A DNA stretch of 9,117 bases. Source: Thermoproteota archaeon. Its GTDB lineage: Archaea > Korarchaeota > Korarchaeia > B14-G2. How positions within the stretch are numbered: the first letter of the stretch is position 1; the number at the start of each line of letters is the position of its first letter. The DNA lies in the NCBI GenBank assembly GCA_003661385.1, contig QMWA01000058.1, positions 1 through 9,117 of the forward strand, given 5' to 3'. The notes below the pieces were generated by a model. The model saw only the letters and a program-made list of their open reading frames with translations, did no database searches and was not told the origin of the DNA. Below, one piece after another: positions 1,599 through 7,302 of the stretch. The position numbers were made by a program, and so were the translations under genes.

Positions 1599-1621
1599 GG
1601 GGGCGGCCACCCCTACTTTTT
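1599..1621 (+). terminator. Possible terminator of the ferredoxin gene
   Basis: GGGG (1600-1603) can pair with CCCC (1610-1613) around a CGGCCA loop, followed by TAC and five T (1617-1621). A U-rich run is the main archaeal termination signal. The site overlaps the last codons of the convergent lysS gene (stop at 1613-1615), so both transcripts would overlap slightly at their 3' ends. The same hairpin without a T-run lies just past lysS on the minus strand. Confidence 0.45.
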
Positions 1622-3088
1622 CTCAGGCCTCAGTACTGGGAACAGTATCACCTCTCTTATTGATGGGGCGTCTGTGAGGATCATCACAAGCCTGTCTACT
1701 CCTATGCCTAAGCCCCCTGTCGGAGGCATCCCGTGCTCTAAGGCTACTATGTAGTCCTCATCCATCTCGTGGGCTTCCTCATCCCCCATCTTCCTGAGCT
1801 CAAGCTGCTCTAGGAACCTCTTCTTCTGGTCGAATGGGTCGTTTAGCTCTGAGAAGGCGTTTGCTATCTCCATTCCAGCTATGAAGAGCTCAAACCTCTC
1901 TACTAGCCCAGGCTTGCTTGGGCTCGCCTTAGCTAGCGGCGATATCTCAATTGGGTAGTCTACTATGAACGTAGGCTGAACCAGGTTTGGGACCACGCTG
2001 TGGTCTAGGACCTTGTCCAGTATGTGCCCCTTGGTGTAAGTCCTCTCAGTCTGAACCCCTAGCTCAAGGGCCTTCTCCAGGGTCTGGTCCCTGTCTAGCT
2101 CCCTGAAGTCTACTCCAGTGTACTCCTCTAGGGCATCGTAGAAGCCTACCCTCCTGAACGGAGGCGTCAGGTCTATCTCCCTGCCCTGGTAGGTTACCCT
2201 GGTGGATCCCAGCGCTCTCTCTGCTACTGTGGATATGAGCTCTTCTGTGAGCTTCATTATGTCATTGTAGTCTGCATAAGCCTGGTAGAGCTCCAGTATG
2301 GTGAAGTCTGGGTTGTGCATTCTGTCTATGCTCTCGTTCCTGAAGACCTTCCCTATCTCATACACCTTCTCGTATCCCCCTACTATCAGCCTCTTCAGGT
2401 AGAGCTCTGGGGCTATCCTCAGGTAGAGCTCTACACCGAGCTCGTTGTGCCATGTCTTGAATGGCCTAGCTAGGGCGCCTGTCGCCACGTAGCTCATCAT
2501 CGGGGTCTCGACCTCTAGGAACCCCTTTGAGTCGAGGAACCTCCTTATCTCAGCTATTATCCTAGCTCTCAGCTGGAACCTCCTCCTGACTTCAGGGTTC
2601 ATTATGAGGTCGAGGTAGCGCTGCCTGTACCTGGCTTCAACCTCCCTGAGCCCATGCCACTCTGATGGCAGGGGCCTTACGGCTTTAGCTAGGAGCTTGT
2701 AGCCTGAGACGTCCACAGTGAGCTCCCCAAGCCTCGTCCTGAAGACCTTGCCCCAGGCCCCCAGTATGTCTCCTATGTCAACGTACTTCCTGGCGAAGCT
2801 GTAGCTCTCCTCCCCTAGCCTGTCCTTGGCGAAGTAGAGCTGAACCCTGCCTGTTGCGTCCTCTAGGTCCATGAAGGTGGAGCCTCCATGCACTCTCTTC
2901 CCCCTTATCCTCCCAGCCACCCTGACTTGGCTGTCAGAGTGCTTGTCTGGGGTCACCCAGCTGAACTCCCTTCTTATGTCGCTAGCTGTATGTGTCCTAT
3001 CAAATCTGGTCTCCTTGAAGGGGTTGACCCCCATCTCAAGGATCTCCCTGTACTTCTTGAGCTTCTCCCTCACTATCTCCTCAGCCAT
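1613..3088 (-). CDS. lysS: Class II lysyl-tRNA synthetase
   Basis: This enzyme charges tRNA-Lys with lysine using ATP, in the cytoplasm. The 491-residue length is normal for class II LysRS. An N-terminal OB-fold anticodon-binding domain spans roughly residues 55-140 (VRVAGRIRGKR, FMDLEDATGRVQLYF). The class II catalytic core follows: motif 1 around 188-205 (FLEVETPMM, then GALARPF), motif 2 near 248-266 (FRNESIDRMHNPDF) and motif 3 near 457-470 (GLGIGVDRLVMIL, followed by IREVILFP). The lysine-pocket and late-core signatures EISPLAK and GMEIANAFSELNDP are intact. Archaea are split between class I and class II LysRS, so this gene fixes the type here. The ATG start is placed before the usual N-terminal helix and lies about 40 nt downstream of a TATA-like element. 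The gene is monocistronic, divergent from the GTPase operon and convergent with the ferredoxin. Confidence 0.96.
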   Translation of the reverse strand: MAEEIVREKLKKYREILEMGVNPFKETRFDRTHTASDIRREFSWVTPDKHSDSQVRVAGRIRGKRVHGGSTFMDLEDATGRVQLYFAKDRLGEESYSFARKYVDIGDILGAWGKVFRTRLGELTVDVSGYKLLAKAVRPLPSEWHGLREVEARYRQRYLDLIMNPEVRRRFQLRARIIAEIRRFLDSKGFLEVETPMMSYVATGALARPFKTWHNELGVELYLRIAPELYLKRLIVGGYEKVYEIGKVFRNESIDRMHNPDFTILELYQAYADYNDIMKLTEELISTVAERALGSTRVTYQGREIDLTPPFRRVGFYDALEEYTGVDFRELDRDQTLEKALELGVQTERTYTKGHILDKVLDHSVVPNLVQPTFIVDYPIEISPLAKASPSKPGLVERFELFIAGMEIANAFSELNDPFDQKKRFLEQLELRKMGDEEAHEMDEDYIVALEHGMPPTGGLGIGVDRLVMILTDAPSIREVILFPVLRPEKK

Positions 3089-3122: not shown

Positions 3123-3133
3123 TGATTTAAGTT
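3123..3133 (-). promoter_or_regulatory. TATA-like promoter of lysS
   Basis: On the minus strand this reads AACTTAAATCA. Its centre is about 40 nt upstream of the lysS ATG, which predicts a start of transcription near 3101 and a leader of about 13 nt. It lies in the 94-nt gap between the lysS and GTPase start codons. Confidence 0.5.
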
Positions 3134-3143
3134 GTGGAGGCTA

Positions 3144-3155
3144 AAGGTATTATTA
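3144..3155 (+). promoter_or_regulatory. TATA-like promoter of the GTPase operon
   Basis: AAGGTATTATTA is the AT-rich patch on the plus strand. Transcription starting about 26 nt downstream of its centre would begin near 3176, at or just before the GTG/ATG cluster at 3174-3185. This argues against the far-upstream TTG at 3132 as the start and suggests a leaderless or nearly leaderless first gene. Confidence 0.45.
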
Positions 3156-3182
3156 GGGCTGTATGCTTGTCTTGTGGTGCTC

Positions 3183-3800
3183 ATGCTGTTCAGGTTTAAG
3201 GTTGTTGTTGCAGGCCCGTTTGGGGCTGGGAAGACGACCTTCATCAAGGCTGTAAGCGACTCTAGCCCTCTGCTCTCAGAGGCTCAGCTGCGCCAGGGTG
3301 GCTCAACTACTGTGGCGTTCGACTTGGGGCAGGTGAGGCTTACTCCAAGGATTCTCCTCCTGCTCTTCGGTGCACCAGGGCAGAGGAGGTTCCGCTACAT
3401 GTGGGGGCAGCTGGCTGACGGGATGGATGCTCTGCTGCTCCTCGTAGACTCAACTGACGTGGAGAGCTGGCCTGAAGCCAAGGTGATATACAGGTTCTTC
3501 TCCTCAGCTGGAGACATACCCACTGTGATATGCGCTAACAAGCAGGATCTACCTGGAGCATACCCGCCTGAGAAGGTTGCTGAGGCCATAGAGCTGCGTG
3601 GAGCCCCTGTGCTCCCCCTCATAGCATATGACAGGGCTTCAGCTAGGTGTGCTCTCAGGAAGCTTGTGGAGTCCCTTTACCAGCACCTGGTTGAGACCCT
3701 AGAGGGCAGGAGAAGGCACCCATCTGCGTACCGCAGGCTGAGGAGGCTTACCAGAGAGGCTATAGTGGAGCTCGGGGTGGGAGCTCGTGAGAAAGCCTAG
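3183..3800 (+). CDS. Ras/Arf-like small GTPase (COG2229-type)
   Basis: This is a predicted cytoplasmic GTP-binding switch protein. Numbering from the ATG at 3183, the P-loop is GPFGAGKTT (11-19), a switch I Thr pair is in GSTTVAFD (40-47), the G3 region is LFGAPGQRRF (61-70), and the base-recognition motif is NKQD (119-122). G3 lacks the usual Asp of DxxG (FGAPG instead), a feature I associate with the COG2229 GTPases related to MglA and SR-beta-like proteins. After the G domain (to about residue 165) comes a basic, Arg-rich tail. GTG at 3174 or 3177 would add two or three residues. A longer frame back to TTG 3132 would run through the predicted promoter and is unlikely. The gene overlaps the next membrane-protein gene by 14 nt, so a membrane partner is plausible. 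No roadblock/LC7 regulator is in view. Confidence 0.85.
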   Translation: MLFRFKVVVAGPFGAGKTTFIKAVSDSSPLLSEAQLRQGGSTTVAFDLGQVRLTPRILLLLFGAPGQRRFRYMWGQLADGMDALLLLVDSTDVESWPEAKVIYRFFSSAGDIPTVICANKQDLPGAYPPEKVAEAIELRGAPVLPLIAYDRASARCALRKLVESLYQHLVETLEGRRRHPSAYRRLRRLTREAIVELGVGAREKA

Positions 3801-5247
3801 CGCGGTCTCGTCTGTGCTGGTAGGCCTCAAGTGGGGCCTCCTCAACCCTAGGCTGGCTGTCTTCCAGCTGTCAGGCTGGGGGGCTTCAGCTGTAGCGAGC
3901 ATAGCTTCAACTCTGCTGCTAGCTGAGCTCCTCCTCAAGCTGGCTTCCTCGCCTTCCATTGAGGGAGGCCTGCTCCAGCTCCTAGCTGAGGCCATCAGAG
4001 CAAGGGAGCTTGCTGCCATAGCTGCTGCATCTGCTGTAGCCGTGGGGCTGGCTGAAGCCTTCTCCTGGATGCCTGCCATGCTCTACTTGAGGAGCCTCCT
4101 CAGAGCTGAGGAAGCTGAGACAGGGGAGGCTCTCTCAGCTGTGCTGATGTCTCCTCTGAAGCCTCTCACGGTAGCTTTCACGAAGCTTGCTGCCCAGCTC
4201 CTCCTGATAGCTCCAGCACTAGCGTACCTGGCTGCGAGGCTGGCTGAAACCCCACCTGGCATGTGGCTCCAGGAGCTTGCAGGGTGCGCCTGGCTTCTCC
4301 TGGCTTCTGCAGCCTGGTATGCCGCCACGGAGCTCGCCTTCACCTACGCCTACTGCTTCGCTGCAGAAGGCCTCGGAGCTGCTAGCTCTATAGCTGCGTC
4401 AGCAGCTCTATTCGCTAGGGCGCCAGCATTCACCTTCACCCTCAGAGCAGTGTACTTCCTGCTGCTAGCTGCATCTGCCACGCTCCTATCAGTGGGAGAC
4501 CTGGTGGTCCCAGGCTTCTCCCTCTCCATGTCAGCTCTCCTAGCTCTGTACCTCAACCCCTCGAAGATGGCTTCTGTCATGTCAGCTTACATGCTCCTAC
4601 GCGGGGAGCTGCCTGCTCCACCTCCTCCCAGCGAAGCTAGGGTGCTAGCTGCCCTAGCTGGAGGCTTGAGGTCTGCAGTCAAGGCCTTAGCTAAGGCTGC
4701 TAGAGAGCTTGTGCCAGAGGCTGCTCTCTCAGCAGCTGTGCTAGCTGCCCTGATGCTAGCAGGCTACCACAGAGGCAGCGTGGCTGCAGGAGCTCTATCA
4801 AGCAAGGCTGCTGAAGCCATCAGAGCCCTCCTGTCGAGGGAGCCCTCCTTGACTGCGCTCGAGAGCTCAGGGCTAGCCATGCTCATAATGTCGCACAACT
4901 GGCAGATAGGGCTTGCCTCAGCCTCGTCAGGGGTTCTCGTAGCCACCCCTCTGCTGATCTCGGCTGTAAACGGGTACGTCATAGGCCTAGCAGTGGGCTT
5001 CCTGAAGCCTATAGTAGGAGAGCCTATAGAGCTCAAGCTCATACCCCACGGCATAGTGGAGGTTCCAGCATTCATACTCTGCTGCAGCCTAGGCTTGAAG
5101 CTCAGCAGAGCGGTAGCAAGCTCCCTGAGGAGGGGGAGCTCCCTCTCATCTGAGCTGCTGGAGTCCATAGCGCTTGCTGCAGCAGGTACTCTGCCTCTCT
5201 TCATAGCTGCAGCCATAATAGAGGCCTTCATCTCACCGTACATGTAG
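3787..5247 (+). CDS. SpoIIM/DUF95-family multi-pass membrane protein with long N-terminal membrane region
   Basis: This 486-residue, very Ala/Leu-rich protein has many hydrophobic segments, about nine to twelve, for example near 35-55, 75-95, 120-150, 160-185, 220-250, 312-328, 375-410 and 462-482. The C-terminal part carries the SpoIIM/DUF95 (COG1300) signature: SHNWQIGLAS (369-378), with an Asn in the position typical of the family, AVNGYVIGL (393-401), and IPHGIVEVPAFI (419-430), the PHGxxE motif. Typical SpoIIM proteins are around 200 residues, so the first ~290 residues are an additional membrane region whose family I do not recognise. SpoIIM acts in bacterial sporulation with SpoIID/P, but archaeal homologues have no established role. 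GTG 3787 overlaps the GTPase stop by 14 nt, with GGGGTGGGA (3774-3782) just upstream as a possible ribosome binding site. Base composition matches the neighbours. Confidence 0.82.
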   Translation: MRKPSAVSSVLVGLKWGLLNPRLAVFQLSGWGASAVASIASTLLLAELLLKLASSPSIEGGLLQLLAEAIRARELAAIAAASAVAVGLAEAFSWMPAMLYLRSLLRAEEAETGEALSAVLMSPLKPLTVAFTKLAAQLLLIAPALAYLAARLAETPPGMWLQELAGCAWLLLASAAWYAATELAFTYAYCFAAEGLGAASSIAASAALFARAPAFTFTLRAVYFLLLAASATLLSVGDLVVPGFSLSMSALLALYLNPSKMASVMSAYMLLRGELPAPPPPSEARVLAALAGGLRSAVKALAKAARELVPEAALSAAVLAALMLAGYHRGSVAAGALSSKAAEAIRALLSREPSLTALESSGLAMLIMSHNWQIGLASASSGVLVATPLLISAVNGYVIGLAVGFLKPIVGEPIELKLIPHGIVEVPAFILCCSLGLKLSRAVASSLRRGSSLSSELLESIALAAAGTLPLFIAAAIIEAFISPYM

Positions 5248-5250
5248 GAG

Positions 5251-5946
5251 GTGGTGGAGCTGGCTAGAAGAGGCGAGAGCAGCCTCAGGATAGCTGCTGA
5301 GGTGCTTGAGGAGTCTGGCCTCAAAGTCATAGAGACCTCAAGGAGGATAACACTTGGTGGGGTTGAAGCTGGTGAAGTAGACATCATAGCAGAAGACCCT
5401 CAGGGATTGAGGTATGCAGTGGAGGTCAAAGCTGGCAGAGCTGGCGTGTCAGATGTCAGGCAAGCCTACGTCAACGCTCTGCTGCTGGAGCTGAAGCCTA
5501 TGCTGGTCTGCAAGGGGCTGGCAGACGAAGCAGCTCAGGCTGTAGCTGAGAAGCTCGGTGTGAAGGTGCTTCAGCTCCCAGACTACTACATACTGCTAGA
5601 GGGGGAGGAGCTGGAGTATGCTGTCAGAGAGGCTGTAGCAGACACCCTATCCAAGGCGCTGGCAGCAGCCTCCGCCCTAGGTGAGCTAGCAGAGACGCTA
5701 GCTCAGTCACAGGACATGGAGGAGGCCTCCAGGAGGGCAGGCTGCACTCCTAGAGAGCTGGCTGCAGCGCTAAGCAGGCTAAGGAGAGAGGGGAAGATCC
5801 CGAGGAAGACGAGCTTCAAGCTCCTCAAGCTAGCAGCACAGATCACGCTGCTCAAGAGCTCGCTGGCAGAGAGGCTGTCTCGCATAGAGGAGGAGATAGC
5901 TGAGGTCAAGGAGGCTTTGAGGAAGATCCAGAATGAGCACAGCTAG
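5251..5946 (+). CDS. RecB-family (PD-(D/E)xK) nuclease-like protein with C-terminal coiled coil
   Basis: This 232-codon frame (231 residues) has a restriction-endonuclease-like core at residues 10-115. The motif pair is GEVDII (41-46, Asp44) and AVEVKAG (56-62, Glu58 and Lys60), giving D-x13-ExK, followed by VRQAYVNA (69-76) with the Gln often seen after this core. The pattern is that of archaeal COG4998-type predicted RecB-family endonucleases. The acidic and Lys residues are intact, so metal-dependent nuclease activity is possible. Residues ~150-185 look like a small helical, HTH-like region (DMEEASRRAGCTPREL), and residues ~203-228 are a heptad-like charged helix (RLSRIEEEIAEVKEAL). The start follows the upstream stop after only GAG: TAG GAG GTG GTG. 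GGAGGTG (5247-5253) overlaps the start itself, which suggests termination-reinitiation. GTG 5254 is the alternative. The substrate is unknown. Confidence 0.78.
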   Translation: MVELARRGESSLRIAAEVLEESGLKVIETSRRITLGGVEAGEVDIIAEDPQGLRYAVEVKAGRAGVSDVRQAYVNALLLELKPMLVCKGLADEAAQAVAEKLGVKVLQLPDYYILLEGEELEYAVREAVADTLSKALAAASALGELAETLAQSQDMEEASRRAGCTPRELAAALSRLRREGKIPRKTSFKLLKLAAQITLLKSSLAERLSRIEEEIAEVKEALRKIQNEHS

Positions 5947-6712
5947 CCTAGCTGAAGCCCTCCCCCTGGCTGCAAGGGTAGCTCAGCTGTCAGCTCCAGC
6001 TAGAAGCTGCATGCTGGAGCTTGTGCCAGAGGAGGATGTCGTTGCATCAGGTGTGGGCGCGGCTGCAAGCCTGGCTTCAGAGCTAGGCCTCGAGGTCGTA
6101 GGCAAGGTCAGCGACTCAGAGCTGGTGAAGAGGGGAGAGCCTCTGCTAGAGCTGAGAGGGTGCTCTAGAGCTCTCCTGCTGGTTGAGCCAGCTATGAGGC
6201 TCATGATAGCCATGGCATGCAGCATAGCGACCAAAGTGAGGAGAGCAAAGGCCAAGCTGGCGCCGTCAGCGGTAGCTCTCCCGCTTCAAGTCCCCTACAG
6301 GCTGTACGAGCTGGAGTGCAGGGCTGTAGAAGACGGCGGCGGCCTCGGATTCAGGCGGGATGTGGCTCTTATATCAGCTCTCCACCTCAAGCTATCAGGG
6401 GGAGCTAAGAGAGCTGCTGAGAGGGCTCAGATAGCAAGGAAGCTCGGCTTGAAGGTTGCAGTGGAGGCACCTACCCTCAGGGACATCATGGAGGCAGCTG
6501 AGCTAGCTGACATCATAGTGGTGAAGAGCATGGGGCTGGCTGAAGCTGCAGTAGAGGCGGTAAGAGAGCTCGGGCTAAGAACTCTAGTGGAGCTCCAGGT
6601 AGCTGCTCTGAGCGAAGCTGAGGGGTGCAGGAGGCCACCAGATATAGTGTCCAGCTTAGAGCTGCTGTCAGCAAAGCCAGCGCCAATAGCATCGAGGATC
6701 CACTTGCACTAA
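5933..6712 (+). CDS. NadC/ModD-fold protein with degenerate active site
   Basis: The 259 residues follow the order of nicotinate-nucleotide pyrophosphorylase (NadC). They show an N-terminal domain with LVKRGEPLLELRG (64-76), a VEPAMRLMIAMACSIATKV stretch (84-102) corresponding to ERxxLNxLxxxSGIAT, then ELECRAVEDGGG (126-137), FRRD (140-143), KVAVEAPT (174-181) and ADIIVVKS (192-199). The GGG, one Arg of the HR pair and the Glu of VAVE are kept. The TRKTxPG loop is replaced by ALPLQVPYR (115-123), KDNH by LHLKLSGG, and the late Asp-Asn of LDN by VKS. Normal quinolinate phosphoribosyltransferase activity therefore looks unlikely. The ATG overlaps the nuclease gene by 14 nt, with GAGGAAG upstream (5919-5925). 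It is the last gene of the operon. It could bind a nucleotide-like ligand or be a structural paralogue. Confidence 0.68.
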   Translation: MSTASLAEALPLAARVAQLSAPARSCMLELVPEEDVVASGVGAAASLASELGLEVVGKVSDSELVKRGEPLLELRGCSRALLLVEPAMRLMIAMACSIATKVRRAKAKLAPSAVALPLQVPYRLYELECRAVEDGGGLGFRRDVALISALHLKLSGGAKRAAERAQIARKLGLKVAVEAPTLRDIMEAAELADIIVVKSMGLAEAAVEAVRELGLRTLVELQVAALSEAEGCRRPPDIVSSLELLSAKPAPIASRIHLH

Positions 6713-6789: not shown

Positions 6790-7224
6790 CTATAGTAGCT
6801 CGCTTATGTTCACTCCCTCAGGTAGGAGCACTTTGACCTTTGGAGCCCTCCTTAGCCCCCATCTGAGCCTGTGTCTGGCTATTGAAAGTGGCACCCCATC
6901 TATTGTCTCGGCTACTTCGACAGCTGCCCCACTTCTCGCTAGAGTCTTCGCTTTGAGCACTCCCCCCTCTATGTCTAGGAACACTATGCTCTCGAGCCCG
7001 TAAGAGAGCTCTCTGAGCAGGTTCTCTGGGTAGCCTATCTTCTTCAGCAGCTTGATCAGCTTGTCGACATCAGCCTTGCTTCTGATCTTTATCATCCACT
7101 TTGGCGGGTCTCGTGTGAACTCTATTCTCCCAGGGAACTCCTCGAGCAGCTTCCTGTGCAGAGCCTCATCTAGGTATGGTGCTTCCAGAGGTACCTCTAT
7201 CTCATATGCAAGCTGGGATAGCAA
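6790..7224 (-). CDS. Uncharacterised small basic protein, 144 residues
   Basis: I do not recognise a family. From TTG 7224 the product is soluble with no membrane segment or signal. The first part mixes strands and helices (LAYEIEVPLEAP, then a Lys-rich stretch KADVDKLIKLLKKIGYPENL). The second half has alternating hydrophobic strands (ESIVFLDIEGGVLKAKTLA, AAVEVAETIDGVPL), a basic helix with RHRLRWGLRRAPKVKV, and a short end (NISELL). The frame is open to GTG 7239, but GGAGGTG (minus-strand 7237-7231) sits 6 nt before TTG 7224, which makes TTG the better start. Basic patches would suit nucleic-acid or ribosome binding, but this is only inference. It converges with the NadC-like gene (77 nt between stops) and diverges from the UbiD gene across a region with a long hairpin. 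Confidence 0.68.
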   Translation of the reverse strand: MLSQLAYEIEVPLEAPYLDEALHRKLLEEFPGRIEFTRDPPKWMIKIRSKADVDKLIKLLKKIGYPENLLRELSYGLESIVFLDIEGGVLKAKTLARSGAAVEVAETIDGVPLSIARHRLRWGLRRAPKVKVLLPEGVNISELL

Positions 7225-7230
7225 AACACC

Positions 7231-7237
7231 CACCTCC
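7231..7237 (-). promoter_or_regulatory. Ribosome binding site GGAGGTG deciding a TTG start
   Basis: On the minus strand GGAGGTG is complementary to the archaeal 16S 3' end (CACCTCC) and is followed by a 6-nt spacer (GGTGTT) and TTG at 7224-7222. The upstream GTG at 7239 would place this site inside the coding region. Confidence 0.6.
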
Positions 7238-7238
7238 A

Positions 7239-7302
7239 CCTAGGTAGTCACCTGACGACGCCAAGCCCGGCCATATGGCATTCGTCGAAGTGCTGACCTA
7301 GG
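7239..7302 (-). other. 64-nt imperfect stem-loop in the divergent intergenic region
   Basis: On the minus strand CCTAGGT (7302-7296) pairs with ACCTAGG (7245-7239). A 3x3 internal loop follows, then CAC (7292-7290) with GTG (7251-7249), then GACGA (7286-7282) with TCGTC (7258-7254), and GCC (7279-7277) with GGC (7262-7260). This leaves a 14-nt loop that includes half of the palindrome GCCATATGGC (7270-7279). In total about 18 pairs form across 64 nt. The 3' arm ends next to the GGAGGTG ribosome binding site of the minus-strand gene. It may be a regulatory leader, a small RNA, or a DNA-level operator. Pairing was checked base by base, but stability was not calculated. Confidence 0.45.

Follow-up and report, generated by a model that had tools for sequence, protein, structure and literature searches.

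A NadC-fold protein that lacks most quinolinate phosphoribosyltransferase ligand residues in a korarchaeal genome: a candidate non-catalytic descendant of NadC

Here we describe a 259-residue korarchaeal protein that is homologous to the NAD biosynthesis enzyme NadC, is predicted to share its fold, and has lost most of the residues by which NadC holds its ligands. Probably, though by no means surely, it is a non-catalytic descendant of NadC, retained in a heat-loving, salvage-using archaeon after the loss of the de novo pathway. Its gene lies on a stretch of DNA, hereafter the window, that is a complete contig of 9117 bases (C58) from an assembly of 1.74 Mb that is 91% complete, and it stands in a run of four genes:

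3132 to 3800, plus strand: small GTPase of the Arf/ATP_bind_1 type, first gene of the run (profile match)
3787 to 5247, plus strand: membrane protein with a SpoIIM domain, second gene of the run (profile match)
5251 to 5946, plus strand: PD-(D/E)XK nuclease-like protein (D44, E58-V-K60) with a C-terminal coiled coil (profile match)
5933 to 6712, plus strand: protein of 259 aa with the NadC fold, lacking most of the ligand residues, ATG start (profile, PDB, structure and alignment evidence)

By sequence, the match to NadC clearly exceeds chance. The NCBIfam model TIGR00078 matches the protein with an E-value of 1.1e-16 and 60.9 bits, which is below its cut-off of 198.4, and in Pfam QRPTase_N is over its cut-off (5e-7) and QRPTase_C below it (0.0019). 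Sequence matches in the PDB are confined to NadC-type enzymes, including 1o4u (2.4e-13), and a weak nicotinate phosphoribosyltransferase; the nicotinate phosphoribosyltransferase model NF006415 (PRK08662) reaches 13.1 bits against a cut-off of 243. A ModD-type role was rejected both by score (TIGR01334, 23.8 bits against a cut-off of 178.85) and by context, as there are no molybdate/tungstate ABC transporter genes. We likewise rejected the idea that a frameshift or a wrongly registered frame explains the missing motifs, since a single frame aligns with NadC from the N- to the C-terminus. This full-length alignment agrees with the original prediction, made before the present analysis, that the NadC order of segments is kept.

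That prediction had also proposed a profile search and a structure prediction set against NadC; both were run, the former giving NadC-type matches and the latter a predicted NadC fold. The AlphaFold2 model (pLDDT 91.5, pTM 0.87) has the two-domain architecture of NadC, and that fold is partly carried by the input alignment, whose 35 relatives are canonical NadCs and one ModD-like protein. Its best structural matches in the PDB are all NadC/QPRT, with human QPRT (4kwv) at Z 24.5 and an rmsd of 2.6 over 255 residues. Mycobacterial, Thermus and other NadC structures match it near full length with Z about 24, and the nicotinate phosphoribosyltransferase 2i14 does so with Z 19.1.

The pocket residues of human and pig QPRT were mapped by alignment, through a korarchaeal NadC, onto the window protein. 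Of the 14 mapped ligand residues common to human and korarchaeal NadC, 3 are kept, namely (human numbering first) R161 as R141, H174 as H151 and E201 as E178, and 11 are lost: R102', R138, K139, H160, K171, D222, N223, S248, G249, G250 and G270, the last being replaced by L242. Q274 is also deleted, but was left uncounted because it is not conserved in the korarchaeal NadC. The other replacements, all placed by alignment, are as follows:

6185 to 6199, plus strand: EPAMR (residues 85-89) in place of ERTxLN, with which the long helix starts; the partner-subunit Arg102' is Pro86, and Arg89 stands three residues further on
6281 to 6301, plus strand: residues 117-123 in place of the TRKTxPG loop; its TRK is P117, L118, Q119, so that Arg138 has become L118 and Lys139 Q119
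6335 to 6355, plus strand: GGGLGFR (135-141); GGG and the R161 equivalent kept, His160 replaced by Phe140
6374 to 6385, plus strand: SALH (148-151) in place of KDNH; His174 kept, Lys171 replaced by Ser148
6455 to 6466, plus strand: VAVE (175-178); Glu178, the equivalent of human Glu201, kept
6521 to 6529, plus strand: VKS (197-199) in place of LDN; Asp222 replaced by Lys198 and Asn223 by Ser199
6590 to 6607, plus strand: ELQVAA (220-225); SGG phosphate loop lost (S248 to A224, G249 to A225, G250 deleted)

It has been shown that in Mycobacterium tuberculosis NadC the replacement by Ala of Arg105', Arg139, Arg162, Lys172 or His175 leaves in each case no detectable activity (PMC4065032). In this quinolinate-site set only the equivalents of Arg162 and His175 are kept in the window protein (R141 and H151), and the other three positions are P86, L118 and S148. 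In pig QPRT, the ribose of NaMN is bound by Glu201 and Asp222 and its phosphate by Lys139, Asn223, Gly249, Gly250 and Gly270 (PMC3633916); only the Glu201 equivalent, E178, survives of these ribose acids and this phosphate site. Because all mapped phosphate elements and one of the two ribose acids are gone, binding of PRPP by the known mode is unlikely. To judge from the alignment and the predicted secondary structure, Lys198, in the place of Asp222, would lie near the kept Glu178, so that opposite charges would face each other where NadC holds the ribose hydroxyls.

With respect to these motifs, the original prediction was right that the GGG, one HR-type Arg (R141) and the VAVE Glu (E178) are kept and that the TRKTxPG loop and the LDN motif are changed. 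It was also right that KDNH is changed, but it had set LHLKLSGG opposite this motif, a register that does not hold: KDNH aligns with SALH, which retains the His. The losses of the partner-subunit Arg, the SGG loop and Gly270 were absent from it. Its conclusion that the protein is not the NAD biosynthesis enzyme is strengthened, since the residue pattern makes quinolinate phosphoribosyltransferase activity very unlikely. A working enzyme whose residues have shifted position, an idea for which one could cite the three retained residues and R89, just past the lost Arg102', appears highly improbable: R89 is the sole visible shifted Arg, the alignment offers no other site at which the ligand residues are regained and no visible replacement for Arg138, Lys139, Lys171, Asp222, SGG or Gly270, and the absence of nadA means that there is no evident supply of quinolinate. 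A phosphoribosyltransferase or other enzyme for a new substrate, its pocket rebuilt around R141, H151, E178 and K198, would be in keeping with the retained barrel, the three active-site residues and the GGG beside R141, but it is also quite unlikely, given that the mapped phosphate elements (Lys139, Asn223, the SGG loop and Gly270) and one ribose acid have all disappeared and that no signature of another enzyme was found in Pfam or NCBIfam.

The genomic context of NAD synthesis points in the same direction. No canonical nadC, nadA (TIGR00550) or aspartate dehydrogenase was found in the 91% complete assembly, and no nadB scored over its cut-off. The nadB-family matches across the phylum are all below cut-off; in most genomes their frames run to about 520-590 aa, and they are taken to be SdhA-type flavoproteins. 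The absence of nadA and nadC is likely; it should be noted that the missing ~9% of the genome could hold both. On contig C27 the genome does have a nicotinate phosphoribosyltransferase (506 bits, cut-off 243), besides which the window gene is its only NadC-type gene. The original prediction had called for a look at whether the same genome has a canonical nadA/nadC pair, and this search returned none; the term paralogue, if it means a second copy, is therefore not supported. The phylum sample comprised 29 genomes, this one and 28 others, none of which belongs to the same family. Only 4 of the 29 have nadA and nadC, which adjoin in each case; in two genomes (G014, contig C26, and G017, contig C157) they form a nadA-nadC-aspartate dehydrogenase cluster, and the other two have nadA-nadC alone. 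The natural reading is that salvage supplies the NAD of this lineage, as of most of its relatives. The literature yielded nothing useful on how Korarchaeota make NAD. Thus, with nearly all the NadC ligand residues gone and de novo NAD synthesis apparently abandoned, the protein is most probably a relic, worn down or re-used, and not a working enzyme.

The contig itself probably belongs to its bin. Its tetranucleotide use correlates with that of C27 of the same assembly at r 0.975, against 0.33-0.66 for other korarchaeal genomes; mis-binning is not supported, C27 being the best match. The window also contains, at 1613-3088 on the minus strand, a full-length class II lysyl-tRNA synthetase that looks foreign to the class: no match at 1e-30 was listed for it in the 28 other phylum genomes, and its nearest relatives, 50-52% identical, are in other archaeal families. 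This gene was possibly acquired by horizontal transfer. A 149-aa ORF at 6790-7239 on the minus strand has a good coding signal and no convincing Pfam or NCBIfam family.

The divergence of the NadC-like protein is unevenly distributed. Of 61 positions that at least 85% of the relatives share, it retains 25 (41%), where canonical NadCs retain 83-100% and the ModD-like protein 63%; where conservation is moderate, its divergence does not exceed that of the ModD-like protein (35% vs 36%), and its hydrophobic core is kept at 88% of positions vs 82%. That only 41% of the conserved positions but 88% of the core are kept indicates that loss was concentrated in the functional site and that the core was spared. 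The codon-usage score is 0.456 in frame, within the 0.36-0.48 of the other window genes, and -0.40 to 0.12 in the other frames. In a simple neutral simulation, 0.5% of runs still had no stop in the frame when identity had fallen to 47%, and 0.05% when it had fallen to 26%. The intact frame, the locally normal codons and the kept core suggest that the gene diverged mostly under selection, and not as a pseudogene.

These observations bear on the main rival reading, in which the gene is a decaying relic whose function was lost with de novo NAD synthesis, its frame still open and perhaps translated, but idle and destined for loss. Consistent with it are the missing de novo pathway, the failure to find an orthologue in the genomes searched (see below), and the very long branch of the protein in a maximum-likelihood tree, 7.23 changes per site vs a median of 0.54. 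By path, the nearest rows in this tree are korarchaeal NadCs, with the placement of so long a branch unsure. Yet it is improbable under neutrality that about 30% identity would be reached without a stop or frameshift, and the normal codon usage and hydrophobic core count against long neutral drift, if not against a recent loss. The gene is thus not a long-dead pseudogene, an observation that argues against long neutral drift and is compatible with a recent loss of function, and we consider the decaying relic doubtful as an explanation.

Pattern scans of contigs from the genome and viral collections found no degenerate NadC orthologue with the same replacements. None was found among 393 other archaeal genomes either, in which the best matches, at ~63 bits, scored as canonical NadCs do and kept the NadC motifs in those examined, nor in 50 nuclease-bearing genomes, which gave 19 matches with motifs kept in the 6 examined. 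Since the survey covered the best-scoring matches, it could have passed over a degenerate relative at greater distance; within this scope the degenerate NadC is known from a single genome, and the finding is a modest one.

The neighbours of the gene in the window are those for the nuclease, the SpoIIM protein, the GTPase and UbiD. The nuclease and NadC-like ORFs overlap by 14 nt on the same strand, the GTPase and SpoIIM ORFs also overlap by 14 nt, and 3 nt separate the SpoIIM and nuclease genes; in this genome the four resemble a single transcription unit. The original prediction had drawn attention to the coupling with a RecB-like nuclease gene. As gene order this coupling is real, and the overlap suggests translational coupling, which would fit a protein that serves as a subunit or regulator of the nuclease, a special case of a non-catalytic role. 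A functional tie of this kind has a low probability: relatives of the nuclease are many, across Thermoproteota and Thermoplasmata, and at none of the 80 related archaeal loci examined (3 kb flanks, matched with the window's proteins) was a NadC-like neighbour found. A GTPase or SpoIIM neighbour was found at none of them either, these genes being likewise not conserved with the nuclease. In Korarchaeum-type genomes the nuclease is flanked by a KaiC-type ATPase on one side and a PEBP protein on the other, the neighbours it has in korarchaeal relatives. A conserved operon of GTPase, SpoIIM and nuclease was not found in the phylum. Two relatives of the small GTPase, in G025 and G026, follow apparent roadblock-type proteins (judged by eye), unlike the arrangement in the window.

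Returning to a non-catalytic descendant of NadC as the preferred reading, we propose that an ordinary nadC would be the ancestor of the window gene. Once de novo NAD synthesis had gone from the lineage and nicotinate salvage had taken its place, the constraint on the active site would have been lifted; the quinolinate and PRPP sites would then have been replaced and the two-lobe barrel kept under selection. The end state would be a stable NadC-fold protein without phosphoribosyltransferase activity, kept for a non-catalytic role; candidate roles are to bind a small ligand in what remains of the cavity (R141/H151/E178) or to serve as a scaffold or partner. The lack of catalysis, the order of events and the non-catalytic role are what we infer, and we put at about even the prospect that, in an archaeal lineage in which de novo NAD synthesis was lost, a NadC fold has become a non-catalytic protein serving as ligand binder or partner. 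If the protein does have a job, it would be a case of an NAD-enzyme fold re-used after pathway loss in a poorly known archaeal lineage. An annotation could label the gene NadC, and thereby falsely predict de novo NAD synthesis. As a single-genome orphan, the protein is of limited general importance.

Compared with known systems, the window protein resembles NadC (TIGR00078; QRPTase_N and QRPTase_C) in its full-length two-lobe fold, its segment order, the GGG and the equivalents of R161, H174 and E201; it differs in its score (61 vs 198 bits), in lacking 11 of the 14 ligand residues and in having no nadA partner. ModD (TIGR01334), a NadC relative of molybdate/tungstate transporter operons, is likewise divergent, without nadA and similar in core retention. 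A korarchaeal ModD-like NadC relative (L086; G010, contig C18, 1438-2235, minus strand), in a genome without nadA, adjoins apparent tungstate/molybdate-type ABC transporter genes and keeps TRKTHPG; the window protein has neither the motif nor the transporter. Nicotinate phosphoribosyltransferase, a type II PRTase, shares the fold, but has about 400 aa vs 259 aa. In trypanosomatid deoxyhypusine synthase, a catalytically dead paralogue is kept as a partner (PMC3663545). Such dead-paralogue partners differ from the window protein in that its would-be active partner, NadC, was not found in its genome; the likeness to the trypanosomatid case is that an enzyme fold is kept and its catalytic residues are lost.
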